A stretch of DNA of 64,000 nucleotides from Sulfoacidibacillus thermotolerans (GTDB lineage Bacteria; Bacillota; Bacilli; Alicyclobacillales; SLC66): positions 1-64,000 of the forward strand of contig NZ_MPDK01000004.1 in NCBI RefSeq assembly GCF_003144315.1, in the 5' to 3' direction. The notes beneath the pieces were generated by a model. It was not told the origin of the DNA, did no database searches, and was given only the letters and a program-made list of their open reading frames with translations. This document shows positions 1,200 through 46,612 of the stretch, in pieces. The stretch's first letter is position 1, and every line of letters begins with the position of its first letter. Both the position numbers and the translations under genes were made by a program.

Positions 1200-1687
1200 A
1201 TCGATTCGGAAGAGACGTCCAACGATATGTTCACATGGACTTATTTGCAAAAGAATCCAATGAGCTAGACGCTTTGCGTGAAATGAATCAAGAGAGCAAG
1301 GTTACGGTGCTCAATACGCGAGAAGCATCGACAGCGGAGAATGTGACAAGCAAGGCAGAGGTTGTTGGTGGGGCGAGTGTTGGGGGTACGGGGGAAACTG
1401 AAACGGTGACCTCAAATCAAGGACGGACTTATGATGTTACACGTTCTGGCAATCATACAAGCACGACGTCTGTACCACATCCTGCTAAGGGACAACCCAA
1501 TTCGTCCGTTGATATTTTGGATAAACAAACGGGCGGCATAAAAATGAGAAGGTGGTTTGGACCTGATGGCAGGGCAATCCGTGATGTTGACTTTACTAAT
1601 CACGGAAATCCCTCAATGCACCCAGAGTGGCCACATGAACATATATTCGAATGGTTCGAAGATGGGAGCTTTAATAGAATACCGTAA
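1196..1687 (+). CDS. polymorphic toxin C-terminal domain protein
   Basis: 163 aa. The first 95 residues are a Thr/Ser/Gly/Glu-rich linker. Residues 103-163 form a compact domain with the pattern SVDILDK...RRWFGPDGRAIRDVDF followed by TNHGNP...HP..PHEH. I know this pattern from C-terminal domains of polymorphic toxins (from memory possibly the family called bacterial toxin 24; not verified). The conserved His/Asn/Asp residues suggest a nuclease-like active site, but no activity can be assigned. The ATG at 1196 overlaps the previous stop by 4 bases, and its GGAGGG touches the start codon, so re-initiation or a -1 frameshift from the upstream gene is as likely as independent initiation. A small gene typical of the partner immunity proteins follows after 16 bases. 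Confidence 0.65.
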   Translation: MNRFGRDVQRYVHMDLFAKESNELDALREMNQESKVTVLNTREASTAENVTSKAEVVGGASVGGTGETETVTSNQGRTYDVTRSGNHTSTTSVPHPAKGQPNSSVDILDKQTGGIKMRRWFGPDGRAIRDVDFTNHGNPSMHPEWPHEHIFEWFEDGSFNRIP

Positions 1688-2896: not shown

Positions 2897-3289
2897 GTAC
2901 GCCCGGCATGGGCGGAATCTTTAGGGTGTAAGTCCCGAACGGGGGTTGGCGACAAACCTACCGTTAGCCAAGAGCAAGGGTGTGCACCGTGAGGTGGAAT
3001 CTGAAGGAAGCTGGAGGCAAACCCTCGACCTGAGGTACACGAATCGCATTTGAGGCTGTCATAGTTGGACGAGTTGCCAATACACAACGAAGTCCAAAGT
3101 CGCCAAGGGCTATGGCAGTAGACTGCGGCAGGTGCATGAGGGGAAAGAGTCCGTTCTTATCCGGGGAGACCTGTCCGAAACGCTAGTAAAGCTAGTAACC
3201 GTCGATGTAAGTCGACGCTGAACGGGCAGGAGTCAGCAGACGCCATAGTACACAAGTGTGTACACACTTGTGGAAGGGCTGAACATGAA

Positions 3290-4708
3290 GTGAGGTTGGA
3301 CTGTATGCGTTCGTATGACGAGCAACGACAGCAGAAAACTCCGCATGGAGCCTCTAGTCAGGAAGTAGCGGTGAAGCCGCAAGGGACTAACACACGAGGG
3401 CTTAGTTCGTCGTCGGCACAAATAGAGACCCCAACCTGCGAAGGCACGACCTTGCTGTTGGAGAGAGTGCTTGAACGTGGAAACATGCTACAAGCGCTTG
3501 ACCGGGTCGAGTCAAACAAGGGAGCGCCAGGAGTAGACGGTGTCGACGTAAAATCCTTACGAAAGTACGTCGTCGAACACTGGGCTGGCATTCGCCAGCA
3601 GTTGCTTGCGGGAACCTACAAACCACAACCGGTTAGACGGGTCGAAATCCCGAAACCCGGAGGCGGGAAGCGGGGACTGGGTATCCCAACCGTAATGGAC
3701 CGACTCATCCAACAAGCAGTACTCCAAGTACTGACACCCATCTTTGACCCGACATTCAGCGAATACAGCTACGGGTTTCGACCCGGGCGCAAAGCCCACG
3801 ATGCCGTCCTCCAAGCACAGAGCTATATTCAAGCGGGAAACCGATGGACAGTAGATATGGACTTGGAGAAGTTCTTTGACCGCGTGAACCACGACATCTT
3901 GATGTCAAGGGTGGCACGCAAGGTAGAAGACAAACGCGTGTTAAAGCTGATTCGAGGATACTTAAATGCGGGTGTCATGGTGGATGGGGTGGCAACAAGG
4001 ACAGAACTTGGAACACCCCAAGGTGGACCGTTAAGTCCTTTGCTTGCGAATATCCTGCTCGATGACTTTGATAAGGAACTGGTCCGACGCGGACATAAAT
4101 TTGTCCGTTACGCGGACGATTGCAACATCTATGTCAAGAGTCGGCGAGCGGGAGAACGAGTGAAGGCGTCCCTAACGAAGTACTTGGAGAACAGCCTGAG
4201 ACTCAAAGTGAATGTGGACAAAAGTGCGGTGGATAGACCATGGAAACGAAAGTTTCTAGGGTATAGTTTTCTGTCACGGAAACGTGCACCGATACGACTT
4301 GCCGACAAGACCATTGAACGGTTCAAAGACCGCGTGAGAGAAATCACGAATCGAACACGAAGCATATCCGTGCAGGAGAGAATACGACAACTCAATGCCT
4401 ATCTGATGGGATGGGTTGCGTATTTCCGACTTGCGGAGATGAAAGGACACTGCGACCGCTTTGATGAGTGGATACGACGACGCCTTCGTATGTGTATCTG
4501 GAAACAGTGGAAGAGGGTACGGACGCGGATACGCGAATTGCGTGCGCTCAAACAGCCCGACTGGATAGCATTTATGATGGCAAACTCACGGCGTGGATAT
4601 TGGGAAATGGCGAAGAATCTAAACAACGCCATGAGCAAAACGTACTTTGGACAACTGGGTCTCAGGAGTTTACAGGAAAGGTACTTGCAGCTTCGTAGTA
4701 CTTCATGA
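3290..4708 (+). CDS. ltrA: group II intron reverse transcriptase/maturase
   Basis: 472 aa from the GTG at 3290; an ATG at 3305 is an alternative. The reverse transcriptase fingers and palm span about residues 60-320: GAPGVDGVD, IPKPGGGKRGLGIPTVMDR, YGFRPGRKAHDA, VDMDLEKFFDRVNHD and GTPQGGPLSPLLANI. The catalytic YADD lies in FVRYADDCNIYV, and KFLGYSF follows. The maturase (GIIM) domain at about residues 360-440 includes YLMGWVAYFRLA. The end YFGQLGLRSLQERYLQL is typical. No C-terminal HNH endonuclease domain is present, so target entry would have to use replication-fork primers or other nicks. It helps its own intron fold and splice and copies it during retrohoming. The frame is intact. The stop codon falls at the start of domain V. 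Confidence 0.95.
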   Translation: MRLDCMRSYDEQRQQKTPHGASSQEVAVKPQGTNTRGLSSSSAQIETPTCEGTTLLLERVLERGNMLQALDRVESNKGAPGVDGVDVKSLRKYVVEHWAGIRQQLLAGTYKPQPVRRVEIPKPGGGKRGLGIPTVMDRLIQQAVLQVLTPIFDPTFSEYSYGFRPGRKAHDAVLQAQSYIQAGNRWTVDMDLEKFFDRVNHDILMSRVARKVEDKRVLKLIRGYLNAGVMVDGVATRTELGTPQGGPLSPLLANILLDDFDKELVRRGHKFVRYADDCNIYVKSRRAGERVKASLTKYLENSLRLKVNVDKSAVDRPWKRKFLGYSFLSRKRAPIRLADKTIERFKDRVREITNRTRSISVQERIRQLNAYLMGWVAYFRLAEMKGHCDRFDEWIRRRLRMCIWKQWKRVRTRIRELRALKQPDWIAFMMANSRRGYWEMAKNLNNAMSKTYFGQLGLRSLQERYLQLRSTS

Positions 4709-4778
4709 ACCGCCGTATGCGGACCCGCATGTACGGTGGTGTGAGAGGTCGGGGGCTAGCCGCCCCCTCCTACTCGAT
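4707..4778 (+). ncRNA. group II intron domains V and VI
   Basis: Domain V is the hairpin from GAACCGCCGTATGCGG to CGCATGTACGGTGGTG (4707-4741). It contains the conserved catalytic strand and a short loop. Domain VI (about 4749-4778) pairs GGGGGC with GCCCCC and ends CTCCTACTCGAT; the unpaired A in CTAC is the expected branch-point nucleotide. The 3' splice site is inferred at 4778/4779. Confidence 0.8.
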
Positions 4779-35097: not shown

Positions 35098-35325
35098 TAA
35101 AAAAATGCGCCTCTGTCCGACAAGGACGAAAGTGCGCACTTCCGCGGTACCACCTTGATTGATCCACATGTGGATCCTCTCTGAGCTATAACGGGCCTAC
35201 CCGTACTTCCTTCTTAGGGAGTCCGCTCCGGAGTCGGTCAATCGAACGGGCTAAGATGAAGTTCTCAACGATCTTCACTCTCTGTGCTTAGCGAATCGTT
35301 CGTTTTCTCCTTCACTGCGTGTATC
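35098..35325 (-). promoter_or_regulatory. T-box leader of proC (predicted tRNA-Pro responsive)
   Basis: On the minus strand the T-box sequence AAGGTGGTACCGCGGAAG (35139-35156) is followed by the terminator TGCGC...GTCC TTGTC GGAC...GCGCA and a U-run (35091-35107). Stem I lies upstream, closed by GGAG/CTCC. In its 3' bulge, next to the CTCC strand, reads GA-CCG-A; CCG (35235-35237 on the plus strand) would be a Pro specifier codon, fitting proC. An ACC reading (Thr) overlaps it by two bases and is the main alternative. Uncharged tRNA pairs with the specifier and with UGGN, so the antiterminator forms. Confidence 0.9.
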
Positions 35326-37417: not shown

Positions 37418-38703
37418 TGTGCACCTCCGATAACCGGCATCACATTGTGTATGGTTTGCACATCGTTCACAGCAGATAAAGCGTTAAGTGCTTTTGTGAC
37501 TTGTTCTTGGCCTACTTCATGAGTTACGATGACGATTTCTGCACTATTTTGACGGGAGCGTTTTTGTAAGACGGTTTCCATGCTTACTTCTGCCTGGCCA
37601 AATATGGCGGCTATCTGCGCGAATACGCCCGGTTGATCATTTACGGCAAGTCGCACGTAGTATCGAGCGGGCTCGCCTTGCCCGCGGCGAACACGCTTGT
37701 GCGGGAGTAATAATTGGCGCACTCGTAATGCAGTATCCATTCTGAGATTGCGCAGCACTTCAATCATATCGCCGACAATAGCGCTTGCCGTAGGCAGTGA
37801 TCCGGCACCACGTCCAAAAAACATCAAGTCTCCGGCGGCATCTCCACGCACGTATAATGCATTAAACGCATCACTGACATGCGCAAGAGGGTGGTCTTTA
37901 ACAACGAGTGTGGGGCGCACTTGCAGCGTCAGATTGCCGTCGCGATCTGTTCCTTCGGCGACTAGTTTGATCACAGCGCCTAGTTCGTGGGCATATGCGA
38001 CGTCGGCTGCAGTGATCGTGCGAATTCCAGTTACTTCGACGTCATCAAGTGTCACTTTTGCGTGAAAAGCGATCGAAGCGAGGATGGCGAGTTTCCGTCC
38101 TGCATCTAAACCGTCGACATCGCTTGCTGGATTGCTCTCTGCATAGCCAAGTTCTTGAGCCTCTTTGAGTACATCTGCAAAATCAGCGCCTGTTTCAGTC
38201 ATTTTTGATAGGATGTAGTTTGTAGTCCCGTTGATGATGCCTTTTAGGTCGGTAATTTCATTGGCAGTGAGAGATTCTTTTAAAGGTCGAATCAGCGGAA
38301 TTGCACCGCCGACGGCCGCTTCATAATAGACATCAACGCCTGCGTGTTCAGCTGTTTCGAGAATTTCCGTCCCGTGTTCGGCGATGAGATCTTTATTGGC
38401 TGTAATGACGTGCTTGCCTGCTTGTAATGCGCGCAAGATGTAGCTGCGTGCGGGCTCGATGCCGCCAATTGTCTCAATGACCATGCGTATCTCGGAATCT
38501 TCTAAAATATCGTCCGCATTTGTCGTTAATTGTTCATCGATAAAAGAAACTTGTCGCGGTTTTTGCGGATCACGCACAAGTACATGAGTGATCTTTGGCT
38601 GTAAACCGGTAAGACGAGAGATCATGTCTTGACGTTTTTGCACTAGTTCGATGACGCCGGAACCTACGGTGCCACAACCTAGTAAGCCAATCTTCACTTC
38701 CAT
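37414..38703 (-). CDS. hom: homoserine dehydrogenase
   Basis: 429 aa. N-terminal NAD(P) loop [19 protein letters not shown]; catalytic domain with [46 protein letters not shown] and the FHAKV...EV-GI segment; C-terminal ACT domain (residues 350-425, [17 protein letters not shown]) for threonine feedback. First reaction of the threonine branch from aspartate semialdehyde. Its stop overlaps thrC; 23 bases follow the upstream ACT protein gene. Confidence 0.96.
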
Positions 38704-38726
38704 TTTTAAGCACCTCGTTCCGTTTT

Positions 38727-39167
38727 TTATCCTTGCCCAACTAGGAGAACTTGGAGTACGCCGTTTACACTGCGCAATAATTGGAGGGTCTCCTCGAGTT
38801 CTCCGCGCAGGTTCCTCGTCTCAAGCGATAAAATGACTGTTGCGTTGCCCTGAAGCGGGAGGGATTGATTAATCGTCAAAATGTTTGCCTTTTGCGTGGC
38901 CAGTGTATTTAGCACTTCAGACAAGATGCCTGGTTGGTGTTGCAGCGTGAGTGCAAGGGTGACAATCTGTCCTTGCATAGCTGCATGAAAAGGTTTGGCC
39001 GCGTCTTTGTACTTGTAATATGCGCTGCGCGAAATTCCTACCTTGCGCACAGCATCAGAAACACTAAAGCGTGGTTCGCGCTTTAATAGTTCAACAACTT
39101 GAATCGTTCGCTTAATCACATCAGGAAGATGCGAGTATCGAATTAGGTAAAACGGATCGTCCGACAT
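38727..39167 (-). CDS. ACT-domain protein (UPF0735/PheB-like)
   Basis: 146 aa from the ATG at 39167 (GGTGAGGTGC just before). Residues 1-60 form a helix-turn-helix-like region (VIKRTIQVVELLKREPRFSVSDAVRKVGISRSAYYKYKD) that looks DNA-binding, and residues 70-146 an ACT domain (TLALTLQHQPGILSEVLNTLA). The family is common just before hom in bacilli. Binding an amino acid and regulating the thr operon is a reasonable guess, not established. First gene of the ACT-hom-thrC-thrB operon. Confidence 0.9.
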   Translation of the reverse strand: MSDDPFYLIRYSHLPDVIKRTIQVVELLKREPRFSVSDAVRKVGISRSAYYKYKDAAKPFHAAMQGQIVTLALTLQHQPGILSEVLNTLATQKANILTINQSLPLQGNATVILSLETRNLRGELEETLQLLRSVNGVLQVLLVGQG

Positions 39168-39219
39168 GCACCTCACCCTATGTCTCTGTGATAAAAACAA
39201 TTGTTCTTTATTAACGGAC

Positions 39220-39248
39220 ATTATATATTTATTTTACGTAGAGTGCAA
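39220..39248 (-). promoter_or_regulatory. promoter of the ACT-hom-thrC-thrB operon
   Basis: On the minus strand TTGCAC (39248-39243), a 17-base spacer, TATAAT (39225-39220). Its -35 lies 7 bases from the -35 of the opposite ilv promoter. Confidence 0.8.
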
Positions 39249-39255
39249 TAAATTC

Positions 39256-39285
39256 TTGACCATATGCAGAGATAGAAGATATAAT
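39256..39285 (+). promoter_or_regulatory. promoter of the ilv-leu operon
   Basis: TTGACC (39256-39261), an 18-base spacer, and a perfect TATAAT (39280-39285). Transcription would begin near 39292, directly before the riboswitch. Confidence 0.85.
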
Positions 39286-39309
39286 AAATGAAAATTTCGC
39301 ACAATCATC

Positions 39310-39475
39310 CGTCAGGAGGATGTCTAGGGTTCCGCCATTTTTGGGTCTGGTCCAAGCGACATCGCACTTAAAGATTTAAGTGTACACCTTAGGGATAAAA
39401 GCCCTGCGGCAGGTTCTGGCCAGCTTCCAAAGCTCACGTCCGATCCCTGCAGTAGGGCTCGTTTATTTCTTGGGA
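39310..39475 (+). promoter_or_regulatory. ykkC-type riboswitch (subtype 2, predicted ppGpp class) with terminator
   Basis: Conserved ykkC blocks in order: TCTAGGGTTCCG (39323-39334), GGTCTGGTCC (39344-39353) and GGGATAAAAGCCC (39392-39404). An expression platform follows: AGCCCT (39400-39405) can pair with AGGGCT (39454-39459), and CAGG with CCTG inside, then GTTTATTTCTT. The ends of aptamer and terminator overlap at AAAAGCCCT, so ligand binding should prevent the terminator and turn genes on. Guanidine, PRPP and ppGpp share this scaffold; ppGpp is preferred here because this subtype is known before branched-chain amino acid genes, especially ilvE. Class call is by context. Confidence 0.85.
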
Positions 39476-39479
39476 CGGA

Positions 39480-40406
39480 GTGCAAATAGAAAATGCTGGG
39501 GTGGAACATTTGCAAAATTCAGTAGAGCAGTCAGCAGATCGCAAGATTTATTTAAATGGGCAACTCGTCCCCAAATCGCAAGCAGTCGTATCCGTTTTTG
39601 ACCATGGTTTTTTGTATGGCGATGGTATTTTTGAAGGCATTCGCATTTATGACGGCGTTATTTTTCGTCTTGATGAGCATTTGGTGCGTCTCTATGAATC
39701 TGCCAAGTCGATTTTATTAACGATTCCCCTTACTTTTGATGAGATGGCAGATGCCATTGTGGAAACAGTCCGCGCCAATCATTTGCAAAGTGGCTATATC
39801 CGCGTCGTCGTGTCGCGCGGGGAAGGGGACTTGGGGCTTGATCCACGCAGTTGTCCGCGAGCAAATGTCGTTGTGATTGCGGATACAGTGCGCCTTTTCC
39901 CGCAAGAGCTCTACGATCATGGATTGCGTATCGTCACTGTGCCAACGCAACGCAACAGTCCCGCAGCGTTAAATCCGCAAATTAAATCGCTCAATTATCT
40001 CAATAGCGTACTGGTGAAAATGGAAGCAGCCAATTCTGGCGTGCTTGAAGCACTTACTGTAAATGCGCAGGGCTATGTGTGCGAAGGTTCAGGCGATAAC
40101 GTTTTTATCGTAAAACGCAGGAAAGTTTACACACCTCCGATCTATCTTGGGGCGCTTGATGGGATTACGCGGCGCGCGATTATGGATGTTTGCGAGAAGC
40201 TTGAACTGCCTCTTTCTGAGACACCGTTTACGCGTCATGATGTTTATGTGGCTGATGAGTGTTTCTTGACGGGAACAGCAGCTGAGGTCATTCCGGTCAT
40301 CGAAGTTGACGGACGTGAAATCGGGAATGGCAAACCAGGTCCGATCACACAGCAACTGTTAAAAGAGTTTCGCAAGATTGTGCGTGAGCAAGGCCGTCGC
40401 GTGTAA
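39480..40406 (+). CDS. ilvE: branched-chain-amino-acid aminotransferase
   Basis: 308 aa (if GTG 39480) class IV PLP aminotransferase that makes Leu, Ile and Val from the 2-oxo acids. KIYLNGQLVPKSQAVVSVFDHGFLYGDGIFEGIR at the N-terminus; PLP Lys in NPQIKSLNYLNSVL; GYVCEGSGDNVFIVK; and GTAAEVIPVIEVDGREIG. The start is uncertain: GTG 39480 overlaps its GGACGGAG, while TTG 39510 has GGGGTGG five bases before it. Short form of about 300 aa, as in archaea and many bacilli. First gene of ilvE-ilvB-ilvN-ilvC-leuA-leuB under the riboswitch. Confidence 0.94.
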   Translation: MQIENAGVEHLQNSVEQSADRKIYLNGQLVPKSQAVVSVFDHGFLYGDGIFEGIRIYDGVIFRLDEHLVRLYESAKSILLTIPLTFDEMADAIVETVRANHLQSGYIRVVVSRGEGDLGLDPRSCPRANVVVIADTVRLFPQELYDHGLRIVTVPTQRNSPAALNPQIKSLNYLNSVLVKMEAANSGVLEALTVNAQGYVCEGSGDNVFIVKRRKVYTPPIYLGALDGITRRAIMDVCEKLELPLSETPFTRHDVYVADECFLTGTAAEVIPVIEVDGREIGNGKPGPITQQLLKEFRKIVREQGRRV

Positions 40407-40559: not shown

Positions 40560-42323
40560 ATGAGTGGTGGCAGTGAAGTGGCGGCCATTTTGCCAATGCA
40601 AGAGCCGGTGGAAAGACCTGTGGTGAAACAAGACGTTAACCCAAGGCGAGAAGTGCGTACAGGAGCTGAACTTTTGTGCTCATTGCTGGAGCAGGCTGGT
40701 GTAGATACAATTTTTGGATATCCCGGCGGGGCGGTATTACCGATCTATGACGCGCTCTATTCATCTCCTATTCGCCATATTTTGACGCGTCACGAGCAAG
40801 GTGCCATTCATGCGGCACAGGGGTTTGCGCGCGTGACGGGAAAACCGGGAATTGTGCTTGCAACGTCCGGGCCTGGAGCGACGAACCTCGTGACAGGGAT
40901 TGCGGATGCGTACATGGATTCGACACCGCTTGTCATTTTAACAGGGCAAGTTCCGATCGAAAGTATTGGGCGCGATGCATTTCAGGAGGCGGACATTGTC
41001 GGGATCACGATGCCGGTTACTAAGCACAATTACCAGGTGCGCGATATTCACGATTTGCCGCAAGTAATCGCTGATGCGTTTTACATCGCGACGACAGGAC
41101 GACCAGGTCCTGTGCTGATTGATCTTCCTAAGAATATTACGGCAGGCCCTGCAAGTGCTGCTGTTTTGCCACAGGCTCATGTACGCGGTTACAGGTTGCC
41201 TGGGTTACCGCAAGCGGCTGATGTGGAGGCAATCATCGAAGCGATTCGCCAAGCGAAGAAACCGCTTTTGTACATCGGCGGTGGAATTGTGAGCAGTGGT
41301 GCGTCTTCTTACTTGCGTGAATTTGCGCATCGCACAAAGATCCCTGTCGTTTCTACCTTGATGGGGCTTGGCGCTTTTCCTGCACATGATCCGCTTTTTG
41401 TGGGAATGCTTGGCATGCATGGTACGTATGCGGCCAATCGCGCTGTGACAGAGTGTGATTTGTTGATCGCGCTTGGAGTGCGTTTTGATGATCGCGTCAC
41501 GGGAAAACTGCAGCGATTTTCTCCGCATTCAACTAAGATTCATGTCGATATTGATGCAGCGGAGATCGGCAAGAATGTACCTGTGCACATCTCGGCAGTA
41601 GCTGATGTTGGCTTGATGTTGCAAGCGTTGTTAACGCGCGAAGTGCACATAGACACGGCTGCGTGGCATGAACAGATCTTGTTGTGGAATGAAGAGTGGC
41701 CTTTGCAGTATCACGCAAGTGAAGGAGATTTAAAGCCGCAGCAAGTGGTGGAGTTGATTGCACAGTACACACATGAAGAAGCCATCATTACGACAGAAGT
41801 CGGACAACATCAGATGTGGGCGGCGTTATTTTATCCTTTCTCGCGACCGCGTCAATTTGTTACTTCAGGTGGACTTGGTACGATGGGGTTTGGGTTTCCG
41901 GCGGCTCTCGGTGCGCAGGTGGCTCGTCCGGATTCGACTGTCATCTGTATTGCAGGCGATGCGAGTTTCCAAATGAACATCCAGGAACTTCAAACTATTG
42001 TGGAAAATCAATTGCCTGTCAAAGTGGCAATTATCAATAATCGCTATCTTGGCATGGTGCGCCAATGGCAACAGTTTTTCTATGAGAGCAGATATGCAGA
42101 AAGTCGCATTGGGTCACCCGACTTTGCGAAAGTCGCGCAAGCGTATGGCGCTCTTGGGTTGCGTGCTCAAACGCTTGCAGAAGCGAAAACAGCACTTGAG
42201 ACAGCGTTTGCGTATAACGGGCCAGTCATTATTGATTTTATCGTAAAAGAAGAAGAAAACGTGTTTCCTATGGTGCCCCCTGGAAAAGGGACCGATGAGA
42301 TGACGCTCGAGTGGGAGGAATAG
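40560..42323 (+). CDS. ilvB: acetolactate synthase, large subunit
   Basis: 587 aa ThDP enzyme; first common step of Val/Leu and Ile. Start ATG 40560 with GAGGAGG. TIFGYPGGAVLPIYDAL, RHEQGAIHAAQGFARVTGKPG with the catalytic Glu, GPGATNLVTGIADAYMDS, FAD region FQEADIVGITMPVTKHN, and ThDP motif GDASFQMNIQELQTIVENQLPVKVAIINN. Normal length for AHAS catalytic subunits, with no sign of the FAD-free catabolic type. Its stop is 3 bases from ilvN. Confidence 0.97.
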   Translation: MSGGSEVAAILPMQEPVERPVVKQDVNPRREVRTGAELLCSLLEQAGVDTIFGYPGGAVLPIYDALYSSPIRHILTRHEQGAIHAAQGFARVTGKPGIVLATSGPGATNLVTGIADAYMDSTPLVILTGQVPIESIGRDAFQEADIVGITMPVTKHNYQVRDIHDLPQVIADAFYIATTGRPGPVLIDLPKNITAGPASAAVLPQAHVRGYRLPGLPQAADVEAIIEAIRQAKKPLLYIGGGIVSSGASSYLREFAHRTKIPVVSTLMGLGAFPAHDPLFVGMLGMHGTYAANRAVTECDLLIALGVRFDDRVTGKLQRFSPHSTKIHVDIDAAEIGKNVPVHISAVADVGLMLQALLTREVHIDTAAWHEQILLWNEEWPLQYHASEGDLKPQQVVELIAQYTHEEAIITTEVGQHQMWAALFYPFSRPRQFVTSGGLGTMGFGFPAALGAQVARPDSTVICIAGDASFQMNIQELQTIVENQLPVKVAIINNRYLGMVRQWQQFFYESRYAESRIGSPDFAKVAQAYGALGLRAQTLAEAKTALETAFAYNGPVIIDFIVKEEENVFPMVPPGKGTDEMTLEWEE

Positions 42324-42326
42324 GCC

Positions 42327-42842
42327 GTGGAACGAACATTCTCTGTGCTCGTGAACGATCGGCCAGGAGTTCTTGCTCGTGTCGCTGGCTTATTCTCGCG
42401 GCGGGACTTTAATATTGCGAGCATCACGGTGGGAACGGCCGAAGAAGCTGGGCTCAGTCGAATGACGATTGTGAGCAGTGGCGATGATGCGATGGCGTTG
42501 CAGATTATGCGCCAACTTGAGAAACTGGTCGAAGTGATCGAAGTGGCCGACATTTCTAAAGACCCTGTTGTAAAACGCGAACTCGCGTTAATTAAAGTAG
42601 AGGCGGATAAAAATTCGCGACCTGAGATTTCGCATATTCTTGAACCCTTTCGGGTGGCGATTGTTGATGTGGGGCATTCCTCATTGACCGTGCAGGTGAC
42701 AGGCGGAGTCGAGAAAATTGATGCGTTGATCGGTTTGCTGCGCCCCTATGGGATCTTAGAGATCGCCCGCACGGGTGTAACGGCGCTTTTGCGAGCGGCC
42801 GCGAAAGAAGTAGAGGAGAGCGGAGAAGAAGTAGGATCGTGA
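42327..42842 (+). CDS. ilvN: acetolactate synthase, small (regulatory) subunit
   Basis: 171 aa. N-terminal ACT domain (FSVLVNDRPGVLARVAGLFSRRDFNIASITVG) binds valine for feedback; C-terminal dimer domain with ELALIKVEADKNSRPEI and LRPYGILEIARTGVTALLRA. GTG start with GGAGGAATAGG. It activates IlvB. Length of the usual Bacillus IlvH/N. Confidence 0.95.
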   Translation: MERTFSVLVNDRPGVLARVAGLFSRRDFNIASITVGTAEEAGLSRMTIVSSGDDAMALQIMRQLEKLVEVIEVADISKDPVVKRELALIKVEADKNSRPEISHILEPFRVAIVDVGHSSLTVQVTGGVEKIDALIGLLRPYGILEIARTGVTALLRAAAKEVEESGEEVGS

Positions 42843-42961: not shown

Positions 42962-43948
42962 GTGAAAATGTACTATGAAAATGATGCGGATCTGAAATAT
43001 TTGCAAGGGAAGACAGTGGCAGTGCTTGGGTACGGCAGTCAAGGGCATGCTCAAGCGCAGAATCTTCGTGATAGTGGTGTAAAAGTGGTAATCGGGCAGC
43101 GCCCAGGGAAATCTGCGGAGAAGGCACAAGAAGATGGTTTTACAGTTCTGTCGGTGGAAGAGGCTGCGCAGACAGCTGATGTTTTACAAATCCTGTTGCC
43201 CGATGAACGTCAGGCGAAGGTATATCAGGAAGAGATCTTGCCTTACCTGCGCAAGGGGCAAACGTTAATGTTTTCGCACGGGTTTAATATTCATTTTAAA
43301 CAAATCATCCCCCCTGCTGACGTTGATGTTGTACTTGTCGCACCGAAGGGGCCAGGACATTTAGTCCGTCGCGTGTACGAGTCCGGTGGTGGAGTTCCGT
43401 CGCTCATTGCAGTTCATCAAGACGCAAGCGGACATGCGTTTGACACGGCACTCGCCTATACGAAGGGGATTGGCAGTACGAAGGCAGGCGTTCTTGTTAC
43501 TACATTTAAGGAAGAAACAGAAACAGATCTGTTTGGTGAACAGGCTGTACTCTGTGGTGGAATCGCAGATTTGATCAAATCTGGATACGATACGCTCGTT
43601 GGTGCGGGATACCAGCCGGAAATCGCTTTCTTTGAGTGTTGTCACGAAGTCAAGCTTATTGTGGACTTGATTTATGAGGGTGGGCTGTCGCGTATGAATT
43701 ACTCGATCAGCGATACGGCTGAATTTGGCGGATACAACGCAGGTCCGAAAATCGTGACGGACGAAACGCGTAAGGCAATGAAAGGATTGCTCGATGACAT
43801 TCAAAAGGGAGTCTTTGCACGCAACTGGATCTTAGAAAACCAAGCGGGACGTCCGTCATTTTCTGCGATGAGAGAGCAAAATGCCAACCATCCGATTGAA
43901 GAAGTTGGGAAAAAGTTGCGATCAATGATGGGCTTTATTAGCAAATAA
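42962..43948 (+). CDS. ilvC: ketol-acid reductoisomerase
   Basis: 328 aa, class [21 protein letters not shown] is the NADPH loop; [16 protein letters not shown]; the metal-binding [36 protein letters not shown] is intact. Start GTG 42962 or the ATG at 42968 (MYYENDADL), both after GGGGAG. Acts on acetolactate and acetohydroxybutyrate. 119 bases from ilvN. Confidence 0.97.
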
Positions 43949-44001: not shown

Positions 44002-45534
44002 GTGAGGCACATTCAAATCTTTGACACCACGTTGCGAGATGGGGAGCAATCCCCTGGAGTAAGTCTAACCACAGGTGAGAAATTGGAGATTGCGCGACAA
44101 CTTGCACGGTTGCGGGTCGATGTCATCGAAGCTGGGTACGCGGCTGCGTCACCGGGTGATTTTGCTGCAGTACAGACGATTGCACGAGAAGTAAAAGGAG
44201 TTTCGATCTGCTCTCTAGCGCGTGCAACAGAGAACGACATTATGCGTGCATATGAAGCGTGCCAACCGTCTGATGCACCGCGCATTCACTTGTTCTTGGC
44301 GACTTCTGACGTGCATATGCAGCACAAACTGCGCATGACGCGAGATCAAGTTTTACAACAGGTGGATTCCGCCGTGCGTTTTGCACGAGCAAAAGTGCCT
44401 TATGTGGAGTTTTCAGCGGAAGACTCGGGTCGTACAGACTTTGACTTCCTAGTGGAAGTCGTCAAAGTCGCAGTGGCTGCTGGCGCATCTGTGATCAATT
44501 TGCCAGATACCGTCGGGTATCTCTTGCCTCATGAGTATGCGCAGCGTTTTGTGCGCTTGCGCGAACGAGTGGATCTTGGCAATGTGTTGCTGAGTGCACA
44601 CTGTCATGATGATTTGGGTCTTGCGGTCGCAAATACGCTTGCAGCGATTGAGGCGTCAGTCGATCAGGTGGAAGTGACGATGAATGGCATTGGTGAGCGA
44701 GCCGGCAACGCCTCACTAGAAGAGGTTGCTGTTGCGCTGAAGTTGCGTCAAGAGCAATACAAAGTTGAAACGCGTCTTGATCTCAGCCAAATTGCCCGCA
44801 CATCCAAACTTGTGAGTCGTCTGACAGGAATGGTGGTTCCGGCAAATAAAGCAGTGGTTGGCGCCAATGCATTTGCTCACGAGTCAGGGATTCATCAAGA
44901 TGGTGTCCTCAAAGAGCGAACAACTTACGAAATTATCAATCCAGAACTTGTCGGCATCACAGAAAACAAACAACTTGTACTTGGAAAACACTCAGGGCGA
45001 CATGCATTTTTCAAGCACGTGGAGGAACTCGGATATACTTTGTCTGATCAAGACATGCAGGATCTGTTTAAGCGCTTTAAAGACTTGTGTGACAAGAAGA
45101 AGCAAGTGACAGATGAGGACATCTTGGCACTGATAGATGAGCGATTGTATGGAGAGGGACAGCATGCGTTTGCGCTCGATTATTTGCACGTGTCATGTGG
45201 CAATCAACCGCTCGCGACGGCCACAGTGCGGGTCACAGGGCCAAATGGAGTGTTCGAAGAGGCTGCCGTGGGCAATGGTCCGATCGAAGCGATTTATCGT
45301 GCAATCGATCGAGCGACTGGTGAGGAAGTCGAATTAACCTCCTATCAGATCAGTTCTGTCACACCAGGACAGGATGCTCTTGGTGAGGTGCGCGTGCAAG
45401 TTCGAGCAAATGATCGTCTGGTCACAGGCAGACATGTAGCAAGCGATGTCATGGAGGCTTCGGCGCGGGCTTATGTCGATGCGATCAACCGGGTGATGAT
45501 TTTGCGGGGCACGCCTGCAGCATTAGTAAAGTGA
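44002..45534 (+). CDS. leuA: 2-isopropylmalate synthase
   Basis: 510 aa. Catalytic TIM barrel: RHIQIFDTTLRDGEQSPGV, SAHCHDDLGLAVANTLAAIEA with metal ligands, VEVTMNGIGERAGNASLEEV, NAFAHESGIHQDGVLKER. C-terminal LeuA regulatory domain (residues 385-505) senses leucine. GTG start after GGGAGGAAG. First committed step of leucine synthesis. Confidence 0.96.
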   Translation: MRHIQIFDTTLRDGEQSPGVSLTTGEKLEIARQLARLRVDVIEAGYAAASPGDFAAVQTIAREVKGVSICSLARATENDIMRAYEACQPSDAPRIHLFLATSDVHMQHKLRMTRDQVLQQVDSAVRFARAKVPYVEFSAEDSGRTDFDFLVEVVKVAVAAGASVINLPDTVGYLLPHEYAQRFVRLRERVDLGNVLLSAHCHDDLGLAVANTLAAIEASVDQVEVTMNGIGERAGNASLEEVAVALKLRQEQYKVETRLDLSQIARTSKLVSRLTGMVVPANKAVVGANAFAHESGIHQDGVLKERTTYEIINPELVGITENKQLVLGKHSGRHAFFKHVEELGYTLSDQDMQDLFKRFKDLCDKKKQVTDEDILALIDERLYGEGQHAFALDYLHVSCGNQPLATATVRVTGPNGVFEEAAVGNGPIEAIYRAIDRATGEEVELTSYQISSVTPGQDALGEVRVQVRANDRLVTGRHVASDVMEASARAYVDAINRVMILRGTPAALVK

Positions 45535-45544
45535 GGGGAAGATT

Positions 45545-46612
45545 TTGACGTATCGAGTTGTGTTACTTCCTGGAGATGGGATTGGACCGGATGTGACTGC
45601 AGCTGCGGTCAAAGTGTTAGAGCGAGCCATTACCGGGCAGGGGATAGAAATAAAGATCGAATCCCATCTGCTTGGTGGTTGTGCAATCGATGAAACGGGG
45701 ACGCCTTTTCCTGAAAAGACGCAAGAGGCGGTGCAAACAGCGGATGCGGTAATTCTTGGTGCGGTTGGAGGGCCAAAATGGGATGTAGGACCAGGGCACT
45801 TACGCCCAGAGGCGGGATTGCTCGCACTTCGCCGATTGCTTGGTGTATATGCGAATATTCGACCTGTGAAAGCTTTTCCGGAGTTGATCGATGCTTCTCC
45901 GTTGCGTAAAGAAATTGCTCAAGCGGTTGACATTGTCATTGTTCGCGAACTGACAGGGGGCGCGTACTTTGGGAAGCGTGAACGTGGCAGAGATGAAGCG
46001 GGGGCACGATTTGCATATGACACGATGTACTATTCAGAAGAGGAGATCCGACGCGTTTTGCAAACGGCTTTTGAAACTGCGCGACTGCGTCGGAAGAAAT
46101 TAACTTCTGTCGACAAGGCGAATGTGCTTGATAGTTCACGTCTTTGGCGAGAAATCGTACAGGAGATGAGCGCACAGTATCCGGATGTTACAGTCGAGCA
46201 CTTGCTCGTAGACGCTTGTGCAATGCACTTAGTAACACATCCTCAAGTATTTGATGTGCTCGTTACTGAAAATTTATTTGGCGATATTTTAAGTGATGAA
46301 TCTGCTGTTTTAACTGGATCGATTGGCATGTTGCCGTCTGCGAGTCTTGGACAGGGAATTGGTTTGTATGAACCAATTCATGGCTCTGCTCCAGATATTG
46401 CAGGGCTAGGGATCGCCAATCCGCTTGGTGCAATTCTCTCTGTAGCTCTTTTATTACGCTATTCGTTGCACTTGGAGGCAGCAGCTTTGCGCGTAGAGCA
46501 AGCAGTTGCTTCGGCAGTGCGCGATGGAGCACGAACGAAGGATCTTGCGCGTCAAGGGGAGAATGTTCTTACGACAGAGCAAATGACAGAACGTGTTCTT
46601 TCCTATTTATAA
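45545..46612 (+). CDS. leuB: 3-isopropylmalate dehydrogenase
   Basis: 355 aa. Starts TTG at 45545 with GAGGGGAAG before it. YRVVLLPGDGIGPDVTAAA; VRELTGGAYFGKRERG (typical of LeuB); NLFGDILSDESAVLTGSIGMLPSASLG; YEPIHGSAPDIAGLGIANP. NAD-dependent oxidative decarboxylase. Last gene of this operon; leuC and leuD do not follow it. Confidence 0.96.
   Translation: MTYRVVLLPGDGIGPDVTAAAVKVLERAITGQGIEIKIESHLLGGCAIDETGTPFPEKTQEAVQTADAVILGAVGGPKWDVGPGHLRPEAGLLALRRLLGVYANIRPVKAFPELIDASPLRKEIAQAVDIVIVRELTGGAYFGKRERGRDEAGARFAYDTMYYSEEEIRRVLQTAFETARLRRKKLTSVDKANVLDSSRLWREIVQEMSAQYPDVTVEHLLVDACAMHLVTHPQVFDVLVTENLFGDILSDESAVLTGSIGMLPSASLGQGIGLYEPIHGSAPDIAGLGIANPLGAILSVALLLRYSLHLEAAALRVEQAVASAVRDGARTKDLARQGENVLTTEQMTERVLSYL

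Follow-up and report, generated by a model that had tools for sequence, protein, structure and literature searches.

Riboswitches that sense ppGpp are among the aptamers of the ykkC group (subtype 2a), and their kind, their mechanism with ON logic and their association with branched-chain amino acid genes are known experimentally (PMC12373219, PMC7266159, PMC10687018). The prototype is the leader of Desulfitobacterium hafniense ilvE (PMC12373219, PMC7266159), and the stated targets are branched-chain amino acid and glutamate synthesis. In the published examples, ligand binding favours the helix between the two ends of the aptamer over a terminator (PMC10687018). The classes of ykkC RNA are separated by a few positions: guanidine-I RNAs carry A at the position equivalent to C49, whereas PRPP (subtype 2b) and ppGpp RNAs have a pyrimidine there and an extra P0 helix (PMC6031431). 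Nucleotide G96 is present in more than 97% of PRPP aptamers, whereas ppGpp aptamers either lack nucleotide 96 or have A, C or U there; the single G96A substitution converted a PRPP aptamer to a ppGpp aptamer. In the structure solved for the G96A aptamer, the guanine of ppGpp is paired with C75 (PMC6031431), and G104 contacts the ligand in solved structures.

The window, by which we mean the whole analysed stretch of 64,000 nucleotides from Sulfoacidibacillus thermotolerans, contains a ykkC aptamer at 39311-39420 of the plus strand, P0 helix included. The element is absent from the default Rfam scan because its score of 59.6 bits with RF00442 (Guanidine-I) lies below the gathering score of 63; a permissive-threshold scan of 38700-39700 matched the full model at 39313-39411 on the plus strand (E 7e-10). 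No separate 2a or 2b family was returned by the Rfam scan, in which RF00442 was the only matching ykkC aptamer family, and the name Guanidine-I is thus no evidence of class. The three conserved ykkC blocks, CUAGGGUUCCGCC, GGUCUGGUCCAAGCG and ACACCUUAGGGAUAAAAGCCC, are all visible in the sequence, as the earlier note on this DNA had reported, and the span that it gave, 39310-39475, is correct to within a few bases. The aptamer and its parts are as follows.

39311 to 39420, plus strand: ykkC subtype 2 aptamer, predicted ppGpp class (2a), from the RF00442 match, covariation and the linker and gene-context test
39311 to 39317, plus strand: 5' strand of the P0 helix, GUCAGGA, pairing with UUCUGGC at 39414-39420 (11 leaders)
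39356 to 39357, plus strand: equivalents of G48-C49 (sequence); C rather than A at 49 excludes guanidine-I
39385 to 39387, plus strand: equivalents of C75-A76-C77 (sequence; PMC6031431)
39391 to 39405, plus strand: P3 hairpin AGGG-AUAAAAG-CCCU, with 39391-39394 paired to 39402-39405
39405 to 39406, plus strand: two-nucleotide linker UG between P3 (CCC) and CGG, lacking the third nucleotide of PRPP aptamers

The fold was drawn with P1 as 39319-39324 paired to 39358-39363, P1b at 39327-39353 and P2 at 39364-39383, and its covariation was assessed in 11 distinct leaders from the same bacterial family as the window. In these leaders 95.8% of cells are paired, and compensatory changes on both sides occur at 10 of the 33 pairs, in P1, P1b, P2 and P3. 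The observed paired, double-change or covariation values were matched by none of 500 shuffles, and when the partner was shifted by one to three columns, at most 46% of cells remained paired. The ykkC core with these four helices is therefore present by both the RF00442 match and covariation. Every cell of P3 is paired, with changes on both sides at two pairs. P0 is also paired in 100% of cells, with variation on one side only, so its support comes from conservation and the literature. The window keeps every residue assigned to the pocket in the ppGpp structure (A5, G6, G48, C75, A76, C77, G104 and G105); A5 corresponds to 39317, within the P0 5' strand, and G6 to 39318. In two other collected aptamers (L052 and L054), the 3' end reads CAAGUUC instead of CAGGUUC, which alters the G104 equivalent.

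The pyrimidine at position 49 is C39357 in the window and C in 11/11 family leaders; together with P0, it places the RNA in subtype 2. If the best Rfam name were followed, the element would be a guanidine-I riboswitch, and RF00442 is indeed the sole ykkC family that matches. However, the match stays below the gathering score, the guanidine-contacting position (A46 in the guanidine-I structure) is C rather than A, a P0 helix is present and the downstream genes are unrelated to guanidine. Moreover, a proper guanidine-I RNA of 80.7 bits is found elsewhere in the same genome (L001, contig C45:4872-4980, minus strand), with GAGAG at the region equivalent to G48-C49. It precedes a guanidinase-like gene of the arginase/agmatinase family, a family read from sequence and one to be expected where guanidine is hydrolysed. 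On the grounds of position 49, P0 and gene context, we reject the guanidine-I identity and give it next to no weight. A pair similar to L001 and an agmatinase/guanidinase-like gene was also seen in L041. Another ykkC RNA, in an Alicyclobacillaceae-like genome (L057, match 1501-1614, plus strand), precedes a NUDIX hydrolase gene and is probably of subtype 2c (nucleoside diphosphate). Subtype 2c is unlikely for the ilvE leader, whose position 49 and ACACC block are not shared by this example.

Within subtype 2, the distinction between PRPP and ppGpp depends on position 96 and on the genes controlled. The ykkC RNAs were collected from about 400 genomes of the phylum, from 40 relatives and by two pattern searches, and the following gene was read. 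In 74 aptamers CGG is preceded by the linker N-G-R; of the genes behind them, 62 were recognised by signature, all of them purine-related, and 12 matched no signature; a recognised branched-chain amino acid gene stood behind none of the 74 parsed. Aptamers with position 96 absent or other than G, a set gathered partly by linker and never by gene, precede ilvE, ilvB, leuA, livK, gltB or an amino-acid symporter, and a purine gene was found behind none of those collected. The target of the window's aptamer is of the amino acid type, as in the ppGpp class. Its P3-to-CGG linker has 2 nt (UG), a length shared with some of the clostridial ilvE RNAs, versus 3 nt with a central G in 74/74 G96-type aptamers, and would fit a missing position 96. 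The alignment of the linker is ambiguous, as its single G could instead be aligned to position 96, leaving a gap at 97. In L058, a member of the family, this G is replaced by A, and it is thus unlike the invariant G96. The linker rule is not absolute: the aptamer L181 (1408-1526, plus strand), before the acetolactate synthase gene ilvB, has the linker GACCCAGG-CGG, which may carry a PRPP-type G96, as an exception to the rule, or may require a different alignment.

The whole aptamer was also compared with two covariance models, one made with 16 non-family 2a RNAs and the other with 16 2b RNAs. Neither model includes L114 (67-187, plus strand; before an oligopeptide permease gene) or L130 (1495-1610, minus strand; before an amidohydrolase gene), two RNAs that belong cleanly to neither class; their linkers in front of CGG, UUCGG/CUGG, are not clear cases of the PRPP or the ppGpp pattern. 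The window scores 76.4 bits with the 2a model and 75.4 bits with the 2b model, a near tie, so that the class call rests on diagnostic positions and genes and not on overall similarity. For known PRPP RNAs the 2b model gives the better score, by roughly 13-35 bits, and known 2a RNAs mostly lean at least 12 bits towards 2a, with an incomplete aptamer match (L164) as a misfit; the family ilvE leaders lean between -1 and +13. In a column log-odds test over conserved columns, which leaves some 2a controls unseparated, the window gave -2.6, a value that does not decide between 2a and 2b. The earlier note had proposed that a best score to the guanidine-I or PRPP class would speak against ppGpp; as written, this is unusable, because the sole Rfam match is Guanidine-I and our own 2a and 2b models score the RNA equally.

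The difference of just 1 bit is one of the observations that favour a PRPP riboswitch, in which the linker G would be position 96 and pair with C75, and PRPP would turn the operon on. The G is alignable in this way, and AAAAGCCC lacks the GA of the clostridial 2a RNAs. However, the window's operon belongs to branched-chain amino acid synthesis and is not purine-related, the third linker nucleotide of the G96-type aptamers is missing, the G itself gives way to A in L058, the family leaders lack the strong lean of the PRPP controls towards 2b, and P0 has UUC as in 2a, not UUU. A PRPP ligand is therefore improbable. Similar weight is given to a subtype 2 variant with altered specificity in the window's family (for example pGpp, pppGpp-selective or another nucleotide). 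The linker differing from that of clostridial 2a RNAs, the extension of P3 by the 95th nucleotide and the placement of the RNA between 2a and 2b by the models would agree with such a variant, but all named ppGpp pocket residues are kept and the gene context is standard for ppGpp. It is also conceivable, and scarcely more probable, that the family's ilvE RNAs form a distinct subtype-2 variant, in which the shortened linker would shift the ligand preference, either within the alarmones (for example from ppGpp to pppGpp or pGpp) or towards a different nucleotide.

The reading that we prefer, with a probability of about 0.88, is a ppGpp (ykkC subtype 2a) riboswitch that turns on ilvE-ilvB-ilvN-ilvC-leuA-leuB in the stringent response. 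Its ligand is a predicted one, and from the evidence taken together we infer ppGpp. This was the proposal of the earlier note; sequence, covariation, gene context and the ppGpp riboswitches in the literature all support it, and the association with branched-chain amino acid genes that the note cited is a known one. The aptamer is placed between a promoter-like site and the operon, with the following elements and genes.

39256 to 39285, plus strand: sigma-70-type promoter TTGACC-18-TATAAT upstream of the riboswitch (consensus scan, 11/12 matches)
39400 to 39459, plus strand: intrinsic terminator hairpin (-31.6 kcal/mol, z -4.3; 11/11 leaders)
39460 to 39469, plus strand: U-rich tail of the terminator, CGUUUAUUUC (sequence)
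39480 to 40406, plus strand: ilvE, branched-chain aminotransferase (NCBIfam PRK08320 and TIGR01122 above cut-off; start codon uncertain)
40560 to 42323, plus strand: ilvB, acetolactate synthase large subunit (TIGR00118 above cut-off)
42327 to 42842, plus strand: ilvN/ilvH, acetolactate synthase small subunit (TIGR00119 above cut-off)
42962 to 43948, plus strand: ilvC, ketol-acid reductoisomerase (TIGR00465 above cut-off)
44002 to 45534, plus strand: leuA, 2-isopropylmalate synthase (TIGR00973 above cut-off)
45545 to 46612, plus strand: leuB, 3-isopropylmalate dehydrogenase (TIGR00169 above cut-off)

The promoter element lies at -64 to -82 from CUAGGG in 10/10 family leaders. The 5' arm of the terminator (39400-39413) consists of the aptamer's P3 3' strand, linker and AGG motif and pairs with 39445-39459; a hairpin from the same start, followed by a T-rich stretch, folded in 11/11 leaders. 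Since the hairpin reuses the 3' strands of the aptamer, aptamer and terminator are mutually exclusive and an ON switch is predicted. The earlier note had likewise seen a terminator overlapping the aptamer end and expected the ligand to turn expression on, which agrees with the overlap in all leaders and with the same logic in the published ppGpp riboswitches. It is proposed that transcription starts just upstream of the riboswitch. In the ligand-free RNA, 39445-39459 would be paired by the P3 3' strand, linker and AGG/P0 3' strand, and the resulting terminator would stop RNA polymerase before ilvE. When Rel makes (p)ppGpp (one Rel/SpoT-type gene is present in the genome), the alarmone would occupy the P3-P0 pocket, where its guanine would stand in for the missing G96 and pair with C39385. 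P0 and P3 would then be held, the terminator blocked and the operon transcribed, read-through probably extending from the riboswitch into the whole ilvE-leuB operon.

Genes for an ACT-domain protein, hom, thrC and thrB lie divergently, and the arrangement of promoter, riboswitch, ilvE and divergent ACT-hom is kept in 10/10 family leaders examined; a named public relative is Ferroacidibacillus organovorans SLC66 (L201). The earlier note had suggested that the shared promoter region might also tie in threonine synthesis; this was dropped, because a consensus scan of the minus strand found no promoter-like site. As a cis-acting element, the riboswitch affects its own transcript, and any coupling to threonine synthesis is unsupported speculation. 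The window contains other RNA elements as well: a T-box leader (RF00230, 101 bits; 35119-35324, minus strand) before a proC-like pyrroline-5-carboxylate reductase gene, and group II intron RNA domains (2983-4778, plus strand; three Rfam matches) of an apparently complete intron.

The genome of the window has three ykkC RNAs: the ilvE leader, the guanidine-I RNA L001 and a 34.6-bit RNA (L003/L162, contig C1:9800-9910, plus strand) before the gene for the glutamate synthase large subunit (gltB), identified by its N-terminal motif. The latter is of the non-G96 type, like the ilvE leader, with GGGAUCCGG instead of GGGUUCCGC, and RNAs of the gltB type also occur in relatives and in two further families of the class (L205-L208, L210). 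One genome would thus combine two ppGpp-type switches, for the branched-chain amino acid operon and for glutamate synthase, with a true guanidine-I switch as an internal contrast. Linker length and G96 provide a simple rule by which PRPP and ppGpp aptamers can be told apart in genomes that lack annotation; the Rfam scan gave one family name for all ykkC aptamers there. If the prediction is correct, direct RNA sensing of the stringent-response alarmone extends to a little-studied acidophile family related to Alicyclobacillaceae; our literature search found no mention of riboswitches in Ferroacidibacillus.

The kind, gene association and mechanism of the ilvE leader are already known, and its occurrence in the window's bacterial family is an extension. 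Like the D. hafniense ilvE ppGpp riboswitch, it has the ykkC fold with P0 and C49, lacks the PRPP-type G96 and stands before ilvE and branched-chain amino acid genes, with a terminator overlapping the aptamer and a predicted ON switch. Compared with the collected clostridial 2a RNAs, its loop is AUAAAAG-CCC and not AUAAAAGA-CYC, its P3 is extended by a pair at nucleotide 95, its linker is of the short kind (2 nt) and P0 is GUCAGGA/UUCUGGC. The guanidine-I riboswitch (RF00442) shares the P1-P3 architecture and most conserved letters with it, but has A at 49, lacks P0 and targets guanidine exporters or degraders. The PRPP riboswitch of Thermoanaerobacter mathranii (PMC6031431) resembles it in fold, P0, C49 and AGG motif, whereas PRPP riboswitches differ from it by a 3-nt linker, a near-invariant G96 and purine genes downstream.
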